Positions 56,223 through 64,000 of a DNA stretch of 64,000 bases are shown here, in pieces. Origin of the DNA: Reinekea marina (GTDB lineage Bacteria > Pseudomonadota > Gammaproteobacteria > Pseudomonadales > Natronospirillaceae); assembly GCF_030409715.1 (NCBI RefSeq), contig NZ_JAUFQI010000001.1:1735001-1799000 (forward strand), given 5' to 3'. A model generated the notes under the pieces. That model searched no databases. It was given only the letters and a program-made list of their open reading frames with translations, and was not told the DNA's origin. Numbering within the stretch: the stretch's first letter is position 1; every line of letters starts with the position of its first letter. The position numbers and the translations under genes were made by a program.

Positions 56223-57260
56223 TTAATAAGGCTCAACCGGTAATGGCTTTTCACTATTCGCCGAAAATGCCTTTAAAGGTTTGGCATGGTATTTCGACTT
56301 TGCCATTCTATCGAGCACACTTTGATGTACAAAAGTAGGGATCTCTTTAGGGTCGGGTATGTCCCTAACTTTTTTCCCCAGCATGACAATTAACCCTTTA
56401 AAAGAGTTATTAAGTTTAGTGGTAACATTGAGGGATTTCTTAGGCACTTTTATATGTGGCTTTACCGTTAAACCAAATTTTTCAGCTTCGCTTACCATCC
56501 ACATCAGTGCGAAATCAGACTGCAAACTCCCCTTGCTGGGTGGATTACCGCCGCCAATATCAGAATGTGAACCGCAAAACCAAACTTGTTTTAAATCGAC
56601 ACTAGGGCGGGGTTGCCAAAGCGTTGGGGCAAAATCATCGCGCTGCTCATCTAATGCCAATGCATGGCGTGCCACCTTTATATTGCTGCCCATTTTATTA
56701 TCGTAAAAAACATGCTTCTTTTTAAGTAAGCCAAACAAAGTGAAAGGAATGCCCATAGCGCCGACGGTATCCCATGCGCCAATAAAATCTATTTTAGGTT
56801 TACCCGCAACGGCAAAGCTTGAGCGAAATTTTTTAGCTTTAGCGCTGTTTGGAGAGTGCTTAGGGTTTTTATAAAGATCAAACGCCGCATTGACTTGGTT
56901 ACCGTGCTCGCTTTTTAGAATATGGCAGGTATTGATAAGCCCGCACAGGCTACGCACCGTGTATGCACCACGGCTAAACCCAAACAGAAAAATTTTATCG
57001 TTTTTCTCATAGTTTTGAACAATAAAGCGATAGCAATCCATCACGTTCTTTTCTAAGCCCGCACCAAAAGCACCGCCGCTGGCTTTATCGTGGTAGGTGC
57101 CTATACCCCAATCGTAAAAGACGACTTGCTTCTCATTGTTTTTATTTTTGGGGGCAATAGCCCGAGACAGTTTTAATACGTTGGTTGGAATATCTTTTTC
57201 GAGGTCTTCCTCTGGTTTATTCCAGGTACCGTCTGAGCAAATAACAATAGTTTTAGACAT
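56223..57260 (-). CDS. DUF2235-domain protein (Tle1-like alpha/beta hydrolase)
   Basis: A 345-residue protein of the DUF2235 family, an alpha/beta-hydrolase fold related to Tle1-type phospholipases. It starts TIVICSDGTWNKPEED, the nucleophile elbow is GFSRGAYTVRS, and the later IDFIGAWDTVGAMG and WFCGSHSDIGGG carry the probable acid and histidine. Some relatives are type VI secretion lipase effectors, but no type VI gene or immunity gene is nearby and there is no signal peptide, so a cytoplasmic hydrolase is equally likely. The DUF3147 gene lies upstream on the same strand with a 94-base gap. Confidence 0.8.
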   Translation of the reverse strand: MSKTIVICSDGTWNKPEEDLEKDIPTNVLKLSRAIAPKNKNNEKQVVFYDWGIGTYHDKASGGAFGAGLEKNVMDCYRFIVQNYEKNDKIFLFGFSRGAYTVRSLCGLINTCHILKSEHGNQVNAAFDLYKNPKHSPNSAKAKKFRSSFAVAGKPKIDFIGAWDTVGAMGIPFTLFGLLKKKHVFYDNKMGSNIKVARHALALDEQRDDFAPTLWQPRPSVDLKQVWFCGSHSDIGGGNPPSKGSLQSDFALMWMVSEAEKFGLTVKPHIKVPKKSLNVTTKLNNSFKGLIVMLGKKVRDIPDPKEIPTFVHQSVLDRMAKSKYHAKPLKAFSANSEKPLPVEPY

Positions 57261-57354: not shown

Positions 57355-57702
57355 TTAAAATAATTTAATGCCAAAATAACTAACCAATTTTGACCATAGC
57401 GCAACCAACACCACAGTTAATATACATACGAAGACTAAACTTAACCAAAACCCAAACTTGCGATACGCCAACGGAAACACCAAAAACATAGGCAAGGTTG
57501 GGATAACGTACCAAAAGGTATAAAACGCATGCTTAGTAATTTTGTCGGCCGCTGCACCTTCCACATGCAACCAAATAAGCACAAGTAAAGTAACAATCGG
57601 CAACGATGCAATCAACGCGCCCAAATTAGCACTGCGTTTTGCAACTTCAGAAATAAGAACCACCAGTGCCGCGGTAATGAGGTATTTGTATAAAATAAAC
57701 AT
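57355..57702 (-). CDS. DUF3147 family membrane protein
   Basis: A small integral membrane protein, about 115 residues, with four predicted helices. The family pattern is ISEVAKRSANLGALIASLPI, followed by YVIPTLPMFLVFPLAYRK. The function is unknown. The frame extends to an ATG at 57774, but that extension is polar and unlike the family; ATG at 57702 gives the usual start MFILYKYL. It may be co-transcribed with the DUF2235 gene. Confidence 0.75.
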   Translation of the reverse strand: MFILYKYLITAALVVLISEVAKRSANLGALIASLPIVTLLVLIWLHVEGAAADKITKHAFYTFWYVIPTLPMFLVFPLAYRKFGFWLSLVFVCILTVVLVALWSKLVSYFGIKLF

Positions 57703-57804: not shown

Positions 57805-57820
57805 AGTGACGATCGTCACT
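57805..57820. promoter_or_regulatory. Perfect CRP-like palindrome GTGA-N6-TCAC
   Basis: AGTGACGATCGTCACT is a perfect 16-bp palindrome with half-sites GTGA and TCAC six bases apart, the CRP/Vfr arrangement. It lies in the divergent gap between the DUF3147-DUF2235 genes and the lipoprotein operon, 110 bases before the latter. A CRP-like regulator gene is encoded at the end of that cluster. Confidence 0.6.
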
Positions 57821-57930
57821 GCGTCACCGCAGCTTGTTCTTGATGATGTCTATTAAACCTAGATCAAGCGCAATGCTTTGCGGCTGTATTGATCCCACTG
57901 TAAACCAACAACAAACACAGGGGACTTATC

Positions 57931-60498
57931 ATGCCTATTTATCCGAGCAATCGTTATATTTCATTTCTATTGTTGGCCATTTTGGTCTTTATTATGGTGG
58001 CTTGTGCAGAGCCGCCTAGCGATCAAGAAGCGGCCGTTGAAGACAGCGTTGACCAAACGTTAACAAATTTAGGCGTAGATACCACGGTAACGGACAGGCA
58101 AGACGATGAAGGTAACCCGCTCCCTGAAAATTACCTTCCTTTAGGCGCGAACGAATCCCTAGAGAAGTTTGATGAACTTGTATTAATTGGCTGGCCACTT
58201 GCTGCAAGCAGTGGGTTTGATAGTCAGTTAACTTTGATGGAGTTTGATCGCAACAACGATGCAAGCTTTACCACTGATGTTTTATTTGCCCCTTCACAAG
58301 CACAAACCCCTTGGGCATCTTCAGTAGGAGACACGCCCGAATCTAAACGCCATTCCGTTGCCGCCGATATCGATGCCGACGGTTTACAAGAGCTTATTGT
58401 TGTACACCAGCAAGAAAATCAAGCAGTGCAATTAATGGTTTATGAAGATAAACCTTCAGGCTTTATTCAAAACCAAACGGTAACGGTCAGTGCCCAAACG
58501 CACAGCTATTTATCGGCAGGTGCTTCGGATATTAACGGCGATGGCTACAGTGAAGTTTGGGTCGCTTTGATCAGTGGATCACAAGTTAAACTGCAATTGT
58601 TAGACAATACTCAAGGTCTGCTTTCGTTATCGACCACGCAATTAGACATAGAGGCAGACTTTCCAGGTAGCGAAATTCAAGTTACGTTATCAAGCGGCAA
58701 TATAGACTACGATGCCTCAATTGAACTGGGGGTTATTGTGAATGAGTCTTTTCAGCTCTCTGGTGATAGTGGCATCAGTAACTTCTATTTGTTTGATGAC
58801 CAGCAACATAACTTTGAAATAGTAAACAGCGGATTACTGCATTCAACAACACTCAACCGAACGGCGGTGGTGGGTAATATAGTTTTAGCCGATATCGACA
58901 ACGATAATATTGATGAGATTGTATTGGCCGGTCTCACGCATTTTGACCCCGATAATTCCTGTGAATACTCCACATTACTGTTGGCATACGATGATGCAGC
59001 AAATGATTTTTCAGAGTTAGGCGCACTAGAAGAAACCGAAACCATTCACGGTGGTTGTAATAAAAGCGTTAAAGGCAATTTGAGGTATGTGCATTTAAAT
59101 GCGGGCGATATTGACGGTGACGGAATATCAGAAATTCAAGCCAATGAATATTTATATGATGATTTTTCCAACGCGCCAGCGTTCAGTTATTTAAGAGACG
59201 TTAGTAGCGACATTGCCAAACTGCCTTTAGCGCAATTGTATGGTAATAACGAAGGCTTTACGGGGGAGTTTGCCTACGAAACGAGTGATATTATTGTAGC
59301 CGACATGACCGCCAATAAACGCCAAGACGTTGTGTTTATTTCACACAGTACTAATGAAATGCAAATTTGGGGCATGGGTGATCCAAAACCAAATATTGGA
59401 GCCATAGACGGCGAGTGGCGATTGCTTAAAAATATTCCAATCACACCCGTAACCGACGAAACCCCCTACCGACCCGATTTACTTGCGATTAATGTAAACC
59501 ATGACGGGCTTTCAATTGCATTCGATGCCGGTGAACATAAGGTTGTCTTTACCGAGCCTGTTATTTTAGCAGCACTTGCAGCCGCTCCCTGCTATTCAAG
59601 CCAAGGGCAAAACCTAGATGCCTGTAGAACCAGCTATGGATCAACCCAAAGCCAGCAAGTGGAATTTGAAGATTCACTGTCGATCAGTGCAGGGGTGTTT
59701 ATAGGGGTAAATGTTGAATTCAGTGACCCCATTACCGCATTACGATTATCAGAAGTTGAATCCAAAGTTAAGGTAACTGCAACCGCCAGTCTTAAGCATT
59801 CTTCATCATACACTTACAGCGAAACGGTGGAGTACACCACCGGTAGCATTGAAGATACGGTCGTGTTTTCTACGATTCCATTCGATATTTATACCTACAC
59901 CATTACCTCGCACCCAGATGAAAACCTAATGGGTGAAAAGATTGTAGTGTCTATGCCACGAGCACCCGTGACCTTACAAGTATCACGCGATTTTTATAAT
60001 GCCAATGTTGAACATGGCGGTCCTAAGATTGGCACCGATGTGTTTAATCATAAAGCAGGTGACCCGAGCAGTTATCCCACGGCATCTCTCAAAGACAGCC
60101 TGCTCAACCGTTACAGCTTAATCAAAAGCGATGAACAAGAAATAACTCGCTGGGCATACGCAACTGGTCCGGCCGCCGTAGGTGAAGGCGGAGGTAGCAC
60201 CAGTTTAGAAATAAACATCGTCGAAGAAAATGGAACCGGCACGAGTGTCGGAGCACAAGTGGAATTTGAAGCACAAGCCACATTTGGTGTGGTATTGGCA
60301 GGCTTCTCAGTAGGCTCCTCTGTTGAATCATCATTGCAAGTAACTCATGGCGAAGAATCTAGTTATGTTGGCGCGGTTGCCAACCTACCCAGTGAAGGAT
60401 TTGCCGATAAGGATTATCGATGGGGGTTAATGACGTATTTAGTCGATGACCACATTTCGGGTCAACAATTTGAAGTCATTAATTATTGGGTCGAATAG
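57931..60498 (+). CDS. Large lipoprotein with FG-GAP/VCBS repeats and an unassigned C-terminal domain
   Basis: 855 residues. The signal sequence ends in the lipobox IMVAC with Cys25, so it is probably a lipoprotein; which membrane or face it occupies is not known. Residues about 130-530 hold FG-GAP-type repeats of the integrin beta-propeller kind, each with a calcium-loop-like acid cluster, for example ADIDADGLQE, SDINGDGYSE, ADIDNDNIDE and GDIDGDGISE. The C-terminal 300 residues are beta-rich with a long Ser/Thr-alternating stretch (SSYTYSETVEYTTGS) and end VINYWVE; I do not recognise this domain. It lies 29 bases upstream of the next lipoprotein gene, and an operon is likely. Confidence 0.75.
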   Translation: MPIYPSNRYISFLLLAILVFIMVACAEPPSDQEAAVEDSVDQTLTNLGVDTTVTDRQDDEGNPLPENYLPLGANESLEKFDELVLIGWPLAASSGFDSQLTLMEFDRNNDASFTTDVLFAPSQAQTPWASSVGDTPESKRHSVAADIDADGLQELIVVHQQENQAVQLMVYEDKPSGFIQNQTVTVSAQTHSYLSAGASDINGDGYSEVWVALISGSQVKLQLLDNTQGLLSLSTTQLDIEADFPGSEIQVTLSSGNIDYDASIELGVIVNESFQLSGDSGISNFYLFDDQQHNFEIVNSGLLHSTTLNRTAVVGNIVLADIDNDNIDEIVLAGLTHFDPDNSCEYSTLLLAYDDAANDFSELGALEETETIHGGCNKSVKGNLRYVHLNAGDIDGDGISEIQANEYLYDDFSNAPAFSYLRDVSSDIAKLPLAQLYGNNEGFTGEFAYETSDIIVADMTANKRQDVVFISHSTNEMQIWGMGDPKPNIGAIDGEWRLLKNIPITPVTDETPYRPDLLAINVNHDGLSIAFDAGEHKVVFTEPVILAALAAAPCYSSQGQNLDACRTSYGSTQSQQVEFEDSLSISAGVFIGVNVEFSDPITALRLSEVESKVKVTATASLKHSSSYTYSETVEYTTGSIEDTVVFSTIPFDIYTYTITSHPDENLMGEKIVVSMPRAPVTLQVSRDFYNANVEHGGPKIGTDVFNHKAGDPSSYPTASLKDSLLNRYSLIKSDEQEITRWAYATGPAAVGEGGGSTSLEINIVEENGTGTSVGAQVEFEAQATFGVVLAGFSVGSSVESSLQVTHGEESSYVGAVANLPSEGFADKDYRWGLMTYLVDDHISGQQFEVINYWVE

Positions 60499-60527
60499 TT
60501 ATTAATAATAAAAATAGGAGAACTGAC

Positions 60528-62450
60528 ATGAAAAAAACACATGTAAAAATAATGGCCATTCCCATTTGGCTGACCCTACTAGCGGGTTGTAATCCAGATG
60601 AAAAAGTGGAGCCGCCCGTAGTTAAAAATTCGCCACCGATTGCAGTAGTGCAAGCGCCTGAAGTTGTAAACGCTAATTTTAAGGTGACGTTAAATGCAGA
60701 GGAAAGCCACGATGCGGATGAAGATGAGTTAACTTATCGTTGGGAACAAGTAAGCGGGCCAGACGTCACTAATGGGGCGGGTTTTCTCACCGGTGAAACA
60801 GTTAGCTTTTCGGCACCTAGTGAAGTGAGTACCTTAAAGCTGAACTTAATTGTTAACGATGGGGAAGATGATAGCCAGCCTGAAAGCATCGCCGTCAATG
60901 TACTGGAAAACACGGCCGCCGCTTACTATGTGGACGGTGATTTAGGTTCCGATACAGAAGGCGTAGGTACGCGCGAAGCGCCTTTTGCATCCATCACCAA
61001 AGCGCTTTGTTCCGTTACCAAAGCGCAGCAAGATATCTACGTAAAAAATAAAGCCAACAACGGCATTTATTCTGAAAAAAGTGACACTTGCTCCCCAGTT
61101 GATGAGCGATCACAAACAGAATGGCTAACAGTGCCAACAGGCACCAGCCTTTACGGTGGCTACGATGAATATTGGCATCGGGATGTAACAAATTCCACGT
61201 TGGTTGATACCGTAGAGGATGGCTTTACTTTTACCGACGTTGATCAACCTGCTTGGTTTAGTGGCTTTAATGTACTTGCACAAGATGCAAAAGAACCAGG
61301 AGTTGCGGTGTCGGTTATCAGTGTGACAGGAGGCAACTCGATGCTAACTATTGCCGATAACCAGTTAATTGCCGGCGATGTTGCAGCGAAAATCACAAGC
61401 AACCCACAATCCAGTTATGGCGTTCGTGTGGGTTACTTAAGCAAGTTACGGCTGGAGCGTAATGAAATTTCTTCGGGTGCGGGCGGTAATGCACTTTCAT
61501 ACGAGGTTGTATTTTCTTCACCGGCACCAGACGGTGCAAATGGTAAGAATGCCAGCGGAACGAGTGGTGGCTCTGGCGGAGATGGGCGCGGGACTTTAGA
61601 TTACGACGGTGGAAAAGGTGGTGACAACAATAGCTCAGGCAAATCAGGCGAAGGACGAACCAATAAGAATGCGGGCAAAAGCGGTGCTCCTGGTAGGAGC
61701 GGAAACGGATCCGGCTATATTGCTGAATTAATTACCCCCTTGAGTACGCGACCAGCGGTAGTATTTAGATGTGGTAATGGGTTTTGGGGGAGTTATGGTT
61801 ATGATGGTTACGGCGGTAATGGGGGGGACGGTGGAGACAATGCTTGGCCTAATAATGGTGGCGGTGGCGGCGGTGGCGGCGGCGGCGGCCAAGGAGGCGC
61901 GGGTGGTCGTTGGGGCGTAGGTGGATGTGCTTCTATCGGGGTTTTACTCAATAGAATTGAAGACGTACAGCTGACCGACAACACCATTATTAGTTCGAAT
62001 GGTGGTTACGGTGGTTCTGGCTCTAGAGGGCAGTTAGGCGGAGACGGTGGCAAAGGCGGTGCCGGTGCAAAAGGTAACTGTACAGGTTGGTGTGCCAAAA
62101 ATGGAAAGAATGGCGGTGCTGGTCAAGCAGGCGGTAATGGTGGGCGCGGCGGTGCCGGCGGCGGTGGTCCTTCTTATGGTGTGCTCGTCGGCTCACAAAT
62201 GTCGCCATTATTGACAGGGAATGATATCCGTAGTGGCAATGGCGGCAATGGCGGCTTTGGAGGGGTAAACGGCCATGGCGGCGAAGGGGGTTACAGCTAT
62301 GCCATTTATGACACTAATCTGAACGATGGTATTGTGCCTGTTCTCTCTGATAATACATTATCGTTCGGGGAGCCTGGGTTAGGTGGCAACAGCACCGGCA
62401 CGGTAGGTGAACCAGGCAATAAAGGTAAAGCCGCTGCAACAAATTGGTAA
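60528..62450 (+). CDS. Lipoprotein with PKD-like domain and glycine-rich DUF1565/beta-helix region
   Basis: 640 residues. ATG at 60528 follows AGGAG; the signal ends in LLAGC with Cys21. A PKD/REJ-like domain (about 30-130, with the pattern YRWEQVSGP and LNLIVNDGEDD) is followed by a DUF1565 start (YYVDGDLGSDTEGVGTREAP) and a predicted right-handed beta-helix. From about residue 340 the helix is broken by long glycine-rich loops (GGxGG runs) like those of PE-PGRS-type proteins, with several cysteines among them. The function is unknown; a surface adhesin or binding role is a guess. Base composition in the glycine region is locally GC-rich. Confidence 0.75.
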   Translation: MKKTHVKIMAIPIWLTLLAGCNPDEKVEPPVVKNSPPIAVVQAPEVVNANFKVTLNAEESHDADEDELTYRWEQVSGPDVTNGAGFLTGETVSFSAPSEVSTLKLNLIVNDGEDDSQPESIAVNVLENTAAAYYVDGDLGSDTEGVGTREAPFASITKALCSVTKAQQDIYVKNKANNGIYSEKSDTCSPVDERSQTEWLTVPTGTSLYGGYDEYWHRDVTNSTLVDTVEDGFTFTDVDQPAWFSGFNVLAQDAKEPGVAVSVISVTGGNSMLTIADNQLIAGDVAAKITSNPQSSYGVRVGYLSKLRLERNEISSGAGGNALSYEVVFSSPAPDGANGKNASGTSGGSGGDGRGTLDYDGGKGGDNNSSGKSGEGRTNKNAGKSGAPGRSGNGSGYIAELITPLSTRPAVVFRCGNGFWGSYGYDGYGGNGGDGGDNAWPNNGGGGGGGGGGGQGGAGGRWGVGGCASIGVLLNRIEDVQLTDNTIISSNGGYGGSGSRGQLGGDGGKGGAGAKGNCTGWCAKNGKNGGAGQAGGNGGRGGAGGGGPSYGVLVGSQMSPLLTGNDIRSGNGGNGGFGGVNGHGGEGGYSYAIYDTNLNDGIVPVLSDNTLSFGEPGLGGNSTGTVGEPGNKGKAAATNW

Positions 62451-62460
62451 TTTAGTGCAA

Positions 62461-62490
62461 GCCGAGTGCAGCAATTGAGCTTCACTCGGC
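62461..62490. other. Hairpin after the lipoprotein operon
   Basis: Eight-pair stem GCCGAGTG / CACTCGGC with a further AGC / GCT inside, ten bases past the lipoprotein stop. There is no T tract on either side, so it may be an mRNA end-protection or regulatory element in front of the CRP-like gene rather than a terminator. Confidence 0.45.
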
Positions 62491-62555
62491 GACCACTTGG
62501 AAAAAAAAGTTGCTTAAGCCATACTTTAACCGGTATTTAAAGTTGGGAAAGCAGC

Positions 62556-63233
62556 ATGTCAATTCTTAGACAGCACGATCTATTTAAGCCTCTATCTGAA
62601 GAGCTGCATCTGGCAATGGAACAAGCTAGCCAACAACGAAAATACAAAGCCGGGTCGTTGATATTTCAACGCGGCGATCCGGGCGACCGCTTATTGATTA
62701 TCGAAGCAGGGATCATCGAAATAAGTTTAATGTCTCAAACCGGCCGAAAATCTATTTTAAATCACCTCACCCAAGGAGACGTGCTTGGTGAAATAGCCGT
62801 GTTTGATGGTGAGCCTAGAAGTGCCGATGCTTATGCAAAAACCGATGTGGTGTCTTTAGAAATATCAAGGTCGCGCATACACCAAGTGTTTTCAGATTCT
62901 CCTGAAGCACTGTGGCAGCTAGTAAAAGTATTGTGTGGCCGAGTACGCAATGCATCGACCATGTTTGAAACACGGGCTTTAACTAGCGCGGATACCCGTA
63001 TAGCGCGTTGTTTATTAAAAATGGCCGATTTATGGGGTAAAAATGAAGGCGATACCGTCGTTATTCAACAGCACCTTACTCAAGGAGATTTAGGCGATTT
63101 ATCAGGTCTCGCGCGAGAAAATGTGAACCGCCATCTGCGTAAGCTTATTCAAGAAGACTATGTTCATTACAACAAAGGGCAGTTTTCGTTGCTAAACATC
63201 GACAGGCTAACGCGCATAGCGAATCAAGAATAA
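62556..63233 (+). CDS. CRP/FNR-family regulator with conserved cyclic-nucleotide and GTGA-reading residues
   Basis: A 225-residue regulator. The cyclic-nucleotide-binding domain has the phosphate cassette GEIAVFDGEPRSADAYAK, keeping the Glu79 and Arg88-Ser89 that bind cAMP phosphate and ribose in E. coli CRP. No FNR-type cysteines were seen. The C-terminal winged helix has the recognition helix LARENVNRHLRKL, where Arg187, Glu188 and Arg192 match CRP Arg180, Glu181 and Arg185 that contact GTGA. A matching palindrome lies upstream of the two lipoprotein genes. A cyclase-domain gene converges on it. Binding of cAMP or cGMP is inferred. Confidence 0.85.
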   Translation: MSILRQHDLFKPLSEELHLAMEQASQQRKYKAGSLIFQRGDPGDRLLIIEAGIIEISLMSQTGRKSILNHLTQGDVLGEIAVFDGEPRSADAYAKTDVVSLEISRSRIHQVFSDSPEALWQLVKVLCGRVRNASTMFETRALTSADTRIARCLLKMADLWGKNEGDTVVIQQHLTQGDLGDLSGLARENVNRHLRKLIQEDYVHYNKGQFSLLNIDRLTRIANQE

Positions 63234-63247
63234 AAGCAATTCAACGT

Positions 63248-64000
63248 TTAAGTACCTATCCGAAACGTTTGAATCGGTGCATCGAACCCCTTCAAAGTTA
63301 AAGCGCCATTGTTTTCGGCAATATGGTGTTGATTACTTCGTTGTAAACAAGTTTCACTGATGAGAGCTTGATAGGCGTTTGCCTCCGCCGCTAACCTTGC
63401 AGCAAGTATAACTTCAGAACCAAAAATAGAGACATCTCTAAACAAGCCCTTTGCCGCTTGAACTGTTGCCATAAATACGCTTCCGGTATGTACGCCTACA
63501 CCCACGGGAATATCATGGTGCTTTGAAAAGTGTTTAGTAAGTTCGGCCGCGCACTCTACAGCCTTAGCTGCATGATTCTGGCCGCAAAACCCGGGCGGCC
63601 AAACCGCCACAATGCAATCACCATAAAAGGCCATAATGAAACCATCGTGATCGGTTATGGCCTGTGTTGCTTGATCTAAAAATGCGTTGACGCGATTATT
63701 GACTTCAGCGGGACTGGCGTGAGTGGCAAATTCGGTTGAATGACGAATGTCAATAAACAAAAGCGATAAATCAACATCAGCGCCGCCGGGAAACTTATTT
63801 AAAAATTCATCGCAGGCTGCACAATAATTTGGATTACGACTGCTAGGGGCACGGTGCCGAAAGGTTTTTTGCCACCACCCCCCAAAGCCTGCAAATGGGG
63901 AAAAACATAATCGGCATCTGGGTTTAGTGGGCATTAAACGATGGATCCACTGCTGTTTAGTTAAATCTGGGTGACCATCTTGGAATATCGTTCGCCAGAG
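63248..64000 (-). CDS. Class III nucleotidyl cyclase-domain protein (5' end beyond window)
   Basis: The frame is open to the window edge, so the ATG at 63934 need not be the start; the upstream residues (LWRTIFQDGHPDLTKQQ) are followed by PRCRLCFSPFAGFGGWW, a cysteine-rich N-terminal pattern seen in some bacterial cyclase-domain proteins. The cyclase domain keeps the two metal aspartates (FIDIRHST and YGDCIVAVW) and the VGVHTG segment. The usual GDxVNxAxR motif reads GSEVILAAR, so the transition-state asparagine appears to be isoleucine while the arginine is kept. Activity is therefore uncertain. It converges on the CRP-like gene. Confidence 0.78.
   Translation of the reverse strand, partial: LWRTIFQDGHPDLTKQQWIHRLMPTKPRCRLCFSPFAGFGGWWQKTFRHRAPSSRNPNYCAACDEFLNKFPGGADVDLSLLFIDIRHSTEFATHASPAEVNNRVNAFLDQATQAITDHDGFIMAFYGDCIVAVWPPGFCGQNHAAKAVECAAELTKHFSKHHDIPVGVGVHTGSVFMATVQAAKGLFRDVSIFGSEVILAARLAAEANAYQALISETCLQRSNQHHIAENNGALTLKGFDAPIQTFRIGT

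Follow-up and report, generated by a model that had tools for sequence, protein, structure and literature searches.

In Rhodospirillum centenum, the CRP-like regulator CgrA protects a TGTGA-N6-TCACA palindrome in front of its own gene cluster, RC1_3785-gcyB-gcyC-cgrA (PMC4681086). The Crp-family protein Clr of Sinorhizobium meliloti has the operator GTNNCNNNNGNNAC (PMC10127613). Here, we describe a block in Reinekea marina that forms part of a window of 64,000 nucleotides (the whole stretch of DNA analyzed, positions 1,735,001 to 1,799,000 of contig NZ_JAUFQI010000001.1) in a 3.7-Mb genome. It comprises a palindrome, an operon of two large lipoprotein genes (lip1 and lip2), a CRP-family regulator gene, and a class III cyclase gene. 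Reading the block as a local cyclic-nucleotide circuit with an operator of its own is well supported by comparison with other genomes; the lipoproteins are probably among its targets, though variable ones, and the whole unit is larger than first described. The features are as follows.

57805..57820, no strand assigned: putative operator, a perfect 16-bp palindrome AGTGACGATCGTCACT of class GTGAYGNNCRTCAC, proposed from the sequence and from enrichment of the class at regulator loci
57931..60498, plus strand: lip1, an 855-aa lipoprotein with a Pfam FG-GAP beta-propeller and a C-terminal part
60528..62450, plus strand: lip2, a 640-aa lipoprotein (open reading frame) with a Pfam PKD-like domain and glycine-rich repeats
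62556..63233, plus strand: CRP-family regulator, 225 aa, putative cyclic-nucleotide receptor and operator owner (Pfam, motif residues, and tree)
63248..64000, continuing to 64039, minus strand: class III cyclase with an N-terminal CxxC...CxxC, 263 aa (PF00211)
L036 14065-15138, beyond the window, on the same strand behind the cyclase: 357-aa companion gene
L036 15155-17425, beyond the window, on the same strand behind the cyclase and companion: pyridoxal phosphate (PLP) decarboxylase gene

A sequence-only reading had described most of this architecture correctly. The palindrome can be read directly in front of the two-lipoprotein operon, ending 110 bp before lip1; lip2 starts 29 bp after lip1, and the two proteins have lipobox-like N-termini (VAC and LAGC). 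The cyclase-domain gene converging on the regulator matches PF00211 (50.3 bits vs a cut-off of 21.9), and its full start at 64039 lies outside the window. The regulator indeed has Arg88-Ser89 and the Arg/Glu/Arg triad, the latter as Arg187/Glu188/Arg192. The analyses of lip2 ran on 60531-62450, that is, minus its first Met. What had to be abandoned was the idea of a self-contained module, because the decarboxylase and companion genes lie past the window edge. The circuit as then proposed survives in part: the cyclase–regulator pair is conserved and the operator class recurs, often before exported-looking genes, but neither self-containment nor constancy of the lipoproteins was borne out. Co-conservation was likewise mixed, since cyclase and regulator stay together at other loci but the lipoproteins rarely accompany them. 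A first survey covered 57 genomes, the own genome among them: eight had the regulator and one the cyclase at E 1e-20, and two had lip1 and one lip2 at E 1e-10. By itself, this survey argued against conservation of the block.

Cyclase and regulator genes occur as a conserved pair. We collected 44 regulator loci in a scan with three aligned regulators, finding them by the peptides VRNAS[DT]MF and GLARENVN; these residues are therefore conserved by construction, which leaves the cyclase and operator counts unaffected. A purpose-made class III profile recognized a cyclase at 23 of the 44 loci, within 300 bp of the regulator at 17 (12 convergent, as in Reinekea, and 5 lying upstream in the same orientation) and at a greater distance, or inside a long reading frame overlapping the regulator (L048), at six. 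In a maximum-likelihood tree, 27 regulators, including that of Reinekea, formed a fully supported core clade; the exact placement of the Reinekea protein is unsure because its end branch was flagged as long. Cyclases occurred at 22 of the 27 core-clade loci, counting the own locus (at 16, within 300 bp of the regulator; at six, farther away or in the overlapping frame), vs 1 of 17 loci outside the clade. Among the five core loci without a cyclase, L049 and L071 are on short contigs and L067 is near a contig end. In two Saccharospirillum genomes of the same family (G019 and G020), the regulator gene immediately follows that of another kind of class III cyclase.

A four-gene cassette of regulator, cyclase, 357-aa companion, and PLP decarboxylase was present at 13 of the 44 loci, one of them that of Reinekea. 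The cyclase/companion/decarboxylase group stands several kb from the regulator at L060, L061, and L065, and is arranged differently relative to it at L042. When the companion was used as the seed, the 357-aa protein was found in 5 of 198 genomes (the family of the L043 genome), four of which were known loci, and all five have a CRP-family gene beside it. In the cassette of the fifth (G491), a different CRP-family gene stands upstream of the decarboxylase gene and only distantly resembles those of the core clade. A reading of the block as a chance cluster was dropped after the regulator-seeded search had revealed the pair and the cassette. As a separate observation, three P47-family genes stand beside the regulator in the alphaproteobacterial loci L043, L046, L047, L049, L050, L060, L061, and L065; PF06597 (P47) was tested on, and seen in, four proteins of L049, L060, and L065.

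The operator class GTGAYGNNCRTCAC was derived from the loci of relatives. Several alphaproteobacteria have TGTGACGCGCGTCACA or a near copy upstream of the regulator, the Reinekea site is an exact match to GTGAYGNNCRTCAC, and the operator site is also present in both other R. forsetii records. A genome search for GTGA-N6-TCAC, proposed in the sequence-only reading, was informative only in narrowed form. The plain motif has 63 sites in the own genome vs 39 for the reversed control, says little alone because it is this common, and was dropped as evidence by itself, but exact GTGAYGNNCRTCAC occurs only twice in the genome. One of these two sites is in this block, and the estimated chance that one of two falls within 6 kb of the regulator is about 0.006. 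Across the 44 loci, 23 exact GTGAYGNNCRTCAC sites were spread over 20 loci, compared with an average of 0.05 and never more than 1 in 20 first-order resamplings. In 26 whole genomes, 21 of 105 such sites were inside regulator loci vs 0.47 expected (genome sizes rounded).

A protein over the CRP cut-off was found in 4 of these 26 genomes, all gammaproteobacterial, and in 0 of the 22 alphaproteobacterial ones, 16 of which have the operator class at regulator loci. A reader distinct from a global CRP is therefore likely in these 22 genomes, the local regulator being the most economical candidate.

On comparative grounds, the lipoproteins are the variable part, the putative cargo, of the unit. Export status was judged by eye from the N-terminus or from repeats. 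Sixteen of the 27 core loci have an exact site, and at 10 of these 16 (Reinekea included) it fronts an exported-looking gene. Behind the site are lipoprotein genes at L041, L042, and L054, genes for RTX-repeat proteins at L045 and L059, and, at L043, L046, L047, L050, and L051, genes divergent from the regulator for small proteins with signal-like N-termini, followed at L043, L046, L047, and L050 by three P47-family genes. A second site at L059 fronts the decarboxylase operon, and at L057 the start of a caspase-domain gene lies some 500 bp from the site. The site at L044, L048, L062, L064, and L065 is followed by a gene that is ambiguous, not evidently exported, or P47. The L054 lipoprotein resembles the C-terminus of lip2 (40% over 188 columns, E 4e-4), a two-sequence match to be read with caution, as it is partly glycine-rich.

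lip1 itself is rare: among 390 genomes of the order, three have it, namely the own genome, another of the same species, and G133. A large protein collection contains 42 homologues. Its C25 is invariant in 29 aligned sequences. The predicted model has a confidence score (pLDDT) of 77 and places two long beta hairpins, at low confidence, in the C-terminal part; the top Foldseek rows for lip1 were beta-propeller proteins, and the C-terminal part gave no clear fold match by Foldseek.

Metagenomes give an indirect hint of an association of lip1 with the cassette. Homologues of lip1, the cyclase (60%), and the regulator (54%) agreed in source and in the length of the longest contig listed (36,945 bases), suggesting that one metagenome contig apparently carries all three. 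The contig figure of 10,911 bases is likewise common to a lip1 and a cyclase homologue, and that of 3,190 bases to a regulator homologue (79%) and a cyclase homologue (71%). The comparison covered 119 cyclase clusters, among 120 listed of 172 found, and the other 40 lip1 clusters had no contig size in common with these 119. Under a jitter null, at least two lip1–cyclase coincidences had a probability of 0.0003 for contigs longer than 9 kb and 0.02 for all lengths.

In class III cyclases, a Lys and an Asp/Thr read the base and an Asn stabilizes the transition state. The cyclase alignment comprised 132 sequences: the own enzyme and the other listed homologues made up 120, and the loci contributed 12, with some sequences nearly identical to one another. 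The metal-binding D97 and D141 and the transition-state R215 were invariant in 132/132. The Reinekea enzyme has Ile211 at the Asn position, where 115 sequences have Asn, 14 have Ile, and 3 have Thr. Instead of the canonical Lys and Asp/Thr pair of adenylate cyclases, it has Ala137 and Ser204; the first position is Ala in 130/132 and Glu in 2/132, and the second is Ser in 132/132. None of the 21 readable core-clade cyclases has Lys at the first base-reading position (L048 was unreadable). The L082 cyclase, beside a regulator outside the clade, has Lys and Asp. Because the cyclase is without the usual nucleotide-selecting residues, the ligand may be other than cyclic AMP (cAMP); a non-standard messenger is possible, and so is a weak enzyme. 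In addition, the pair appears charge-reversed, with Asp first and Lys/Arg second, in the cyclases of L052, L056, L057, L063, and L064, which stand beside core-clade regulators.

The regulator belongs to the CRP/FNR family, both of its domains scoring over cut-off (cNMP-binding PF00027, 82.1 bits; HTH_Crp_2 PF13545, 49.1 bits), and it was matched at 100% in Reinekea forsetii G2M07. It is not the global CRP ortholog (82.7 bits in NF008732 vs the curated cut-off of 266). That ortholog exists elsewhere in the genome, as a check for another CRP revealed (L037 3303-3953; 364.9 bits); it is 24% identical to the regulator and has the same Arg/Glu/Arg triad and Arg-Ser cassette. At the place of the base-contacting Thr pair in helix C, the regulator has Ala133/Ser134. 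Its nearest solved structure is 7pza, a putative cAMP-binding protein (E 3.8e-28), which we take to be linked to S. meliloti Clr. Two identical FNR-like genes (L006 and L007) also lie far apart in the own genome.

The companion (357 aa) has no Pfam match, and its profile found nothing convincing among solved structures by sequence (best E 0.65). Its predicted fold matches the remainder of the calcium-activated Psilocybe decarboxylase (6ebn), a fungal PcncAAAD for which calcium activation and a C-terminal domain at 718-1013 have been described (PMC13062060). The single chain of PLP and C-terminal domains seen in the PcncAAAD type was not found; both parts are present as two genes, and the prediction is that their products assemble into a two-chain form of this aromatic amino acid decarboxylase.

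Taken together, we consider it rather probable that the block is a copy of a cassette common to distant marine bacteria, in which the regulator, once loaded with the cyclase product, binds GTGACGATCGTCAC and switches on the lipoprotein operon. The class III cyclase would make the cyclic nucleotide that serves as ligand, and binding of the loaded regulator to the palindrome would activate transcription of lip1-lip2. These two proteins would be the cargo in Reinekea; at other loci, the operator fronts the decarboxylase operon, the regulator gene, or genes for different exported-looking proteins. With the predicted two-chain decarboxylase, the cassette would therefore tie amine production to surface-protein display. 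Several observations weigh against this account. Eleven of the 27 core loci have no exact site, among them the two of Saccharospirillum, where no operator was found upstream of the cyclase–regulator operon and only one-mismatch sites occur at the regulator 3' end; the G491 cassette has the plain GTGA-N6-TCAC only, with no operator-class site. None of the regulator, cyclase, lip1, and lip2 was found in five congeners at the thresholds used. The lip1 gene of G133 has neither the cassette nor an operator-class site around it, that of G016 (on a short contig) has no operator upstream (best site, two mismatches), and the metagenomic co-location is indirect, coming from shared size and source. Furthermore, the own genome has a global CRP, Escherichia coli CRP occupies GGTGACGCGCGTCACA, further CRP/FNR-family proteins occur in 26/26 genomes, and Ile replaces the transition-state Asn.

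The palindrome could instead belong to the global CRP, with lip1-lip2 as ordinary CRP-controlled genes and the local regulator acting on other targets. The CRP ortholog over its cut-off with the same triad, the 63 plain sites, and the occupancy of GGTGACGCGCGTCACA and AGTGATGCGCATCACG by E. coli CRP in a chromatin immunoprecipitation list (PMC4287617) all speak for this, whereas the mere two genome sites of the narrow class and the 16 of 22 alphaproteobacterial genomes that have the class at regulator loci, none of the 22 with a CRP over cut-off, speak against it; we regard it as unlikely, although the global CRP may read or share the palindrome in Reinekea. About as unlikely is a cyclase that is catalytically dead or nearly so, leaving the regulator to use the ligand of other cyclases or none: the Ile at the Asn position (with Ile or Thr in 14 and 3 of the 132 homologues) and the near-universal Ala and Ser fit this, but the two metal-binding Asp and the Arg are retained throughout, and several cyclase architectures stand beside core-clade regulators, suggesting that cyclase activity is what is kept. 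It is more improbable still that only the cyclase–regulator cassette is real and that lip1 and lip2 are chance neighbors, the palindrome being coincidental or serving the divergent small membrane gene at 57355-57699, upstream of which it also lies. The near absence of lip1 and lip2 in relatives and the solitary lip1 copies without operator and cassette agree with this, but the contig size and source common to the lip1, cyclase, and regulator homologues, the improbability of the two lip1–cyclase coincidences under the jitter null, and the lip2-like lipoprotein behind the operator in L054 do not.

A simple cAMP circuit is opposed by the global CRP, by the E. coli CRP site occupancy, and by a cyclase without the base-reading residues and Asn. 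A bolder extension of the local circuit, which we find doubtful, sees it as a portable second-messenger cassette working with a non-standard cyclic nucleotide, in which the cyclase pair (Ala/Ser for Lys/Asp) and the base-contacting Thr of the regulator would have changed together, and the same operator would take on new exported cargo in each lineage, coupled to a calcium-gated, two-chain, amine-forming decarboxylase.

Near the lipoprotein operon, on the opposite strand, 56223-57260 encodes a Tle1-like phospholipase domain (PF09994, E 7e-84), of a type VI secretion effector family. The small membrane protein gene at 57355-57699, of the PRK09272 kind, is divergent from lip1, and the palindrome in between might serve both. 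Past the window, L036 from 17560 onward, L086, and L087 hold a long array of YD/RHS-like repeated coding pieces with varied short genes between them, presumably resembling a polymorphic-toxin array. Promoter-like matches numbered 7, below the shuffled mean of 9.9, and terminator-like matches 9, somewhat above the shuffled 5.4 (standard deviation 2.2).

A search of a collection of open papers for the operator strings matched GTGACGCGCGTCAC only. The same collection yielded nothing on a Rhodobacteraceae cyclase–CRP pair, on P47/OrfX/TULIP in proteobacteria, or on the combined cassette, and apparently nothing related on Reinekea and cyclic AMP. What began as a guess about one operon has thus become, across alpha- and gammaproteobacteria, a conserved cassette with a predicted enzyme for the messenger, a predicted receptor, an operator class, and exported targets that vary. 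Now testable are the nucleotide used, the calcium gating of a bacterial two-chain decarboxylase, and the separation of a local circuit from the global CRP at similar sites.

Among known systems, the gene adjacency of the CgrA type, a cyclase beside a CRP-like regulator, was found here. In R. centenum, cyclase genes and the CRP-like regulator of the cyclic GMP pathway adjoin likewise (PMC4681086). The R. centenum operon encodes non-catalytic guanylyl cyclase subunits and is involved in cyst development, whereas Reinekea has a CxxC cyclase, in a usually convergent arrangement, together with a decarboxylase pair and exported cargo, and a putative operator for which the evidence is comparative. 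The Psilocybe cubensis noncanonical aromatic amino acid decarboxylase (6ebn) is one chain, whereas its predicted counterpart here is bacterial, split into two genes, and located beside a cyclase and a regulator. Finally, the window palindrome fits the Clr operator, and Clr contacts the base via Thr140/Thr141 (PMC10127613), whereas the Reinekea regulator has Ala and Ser at that place.

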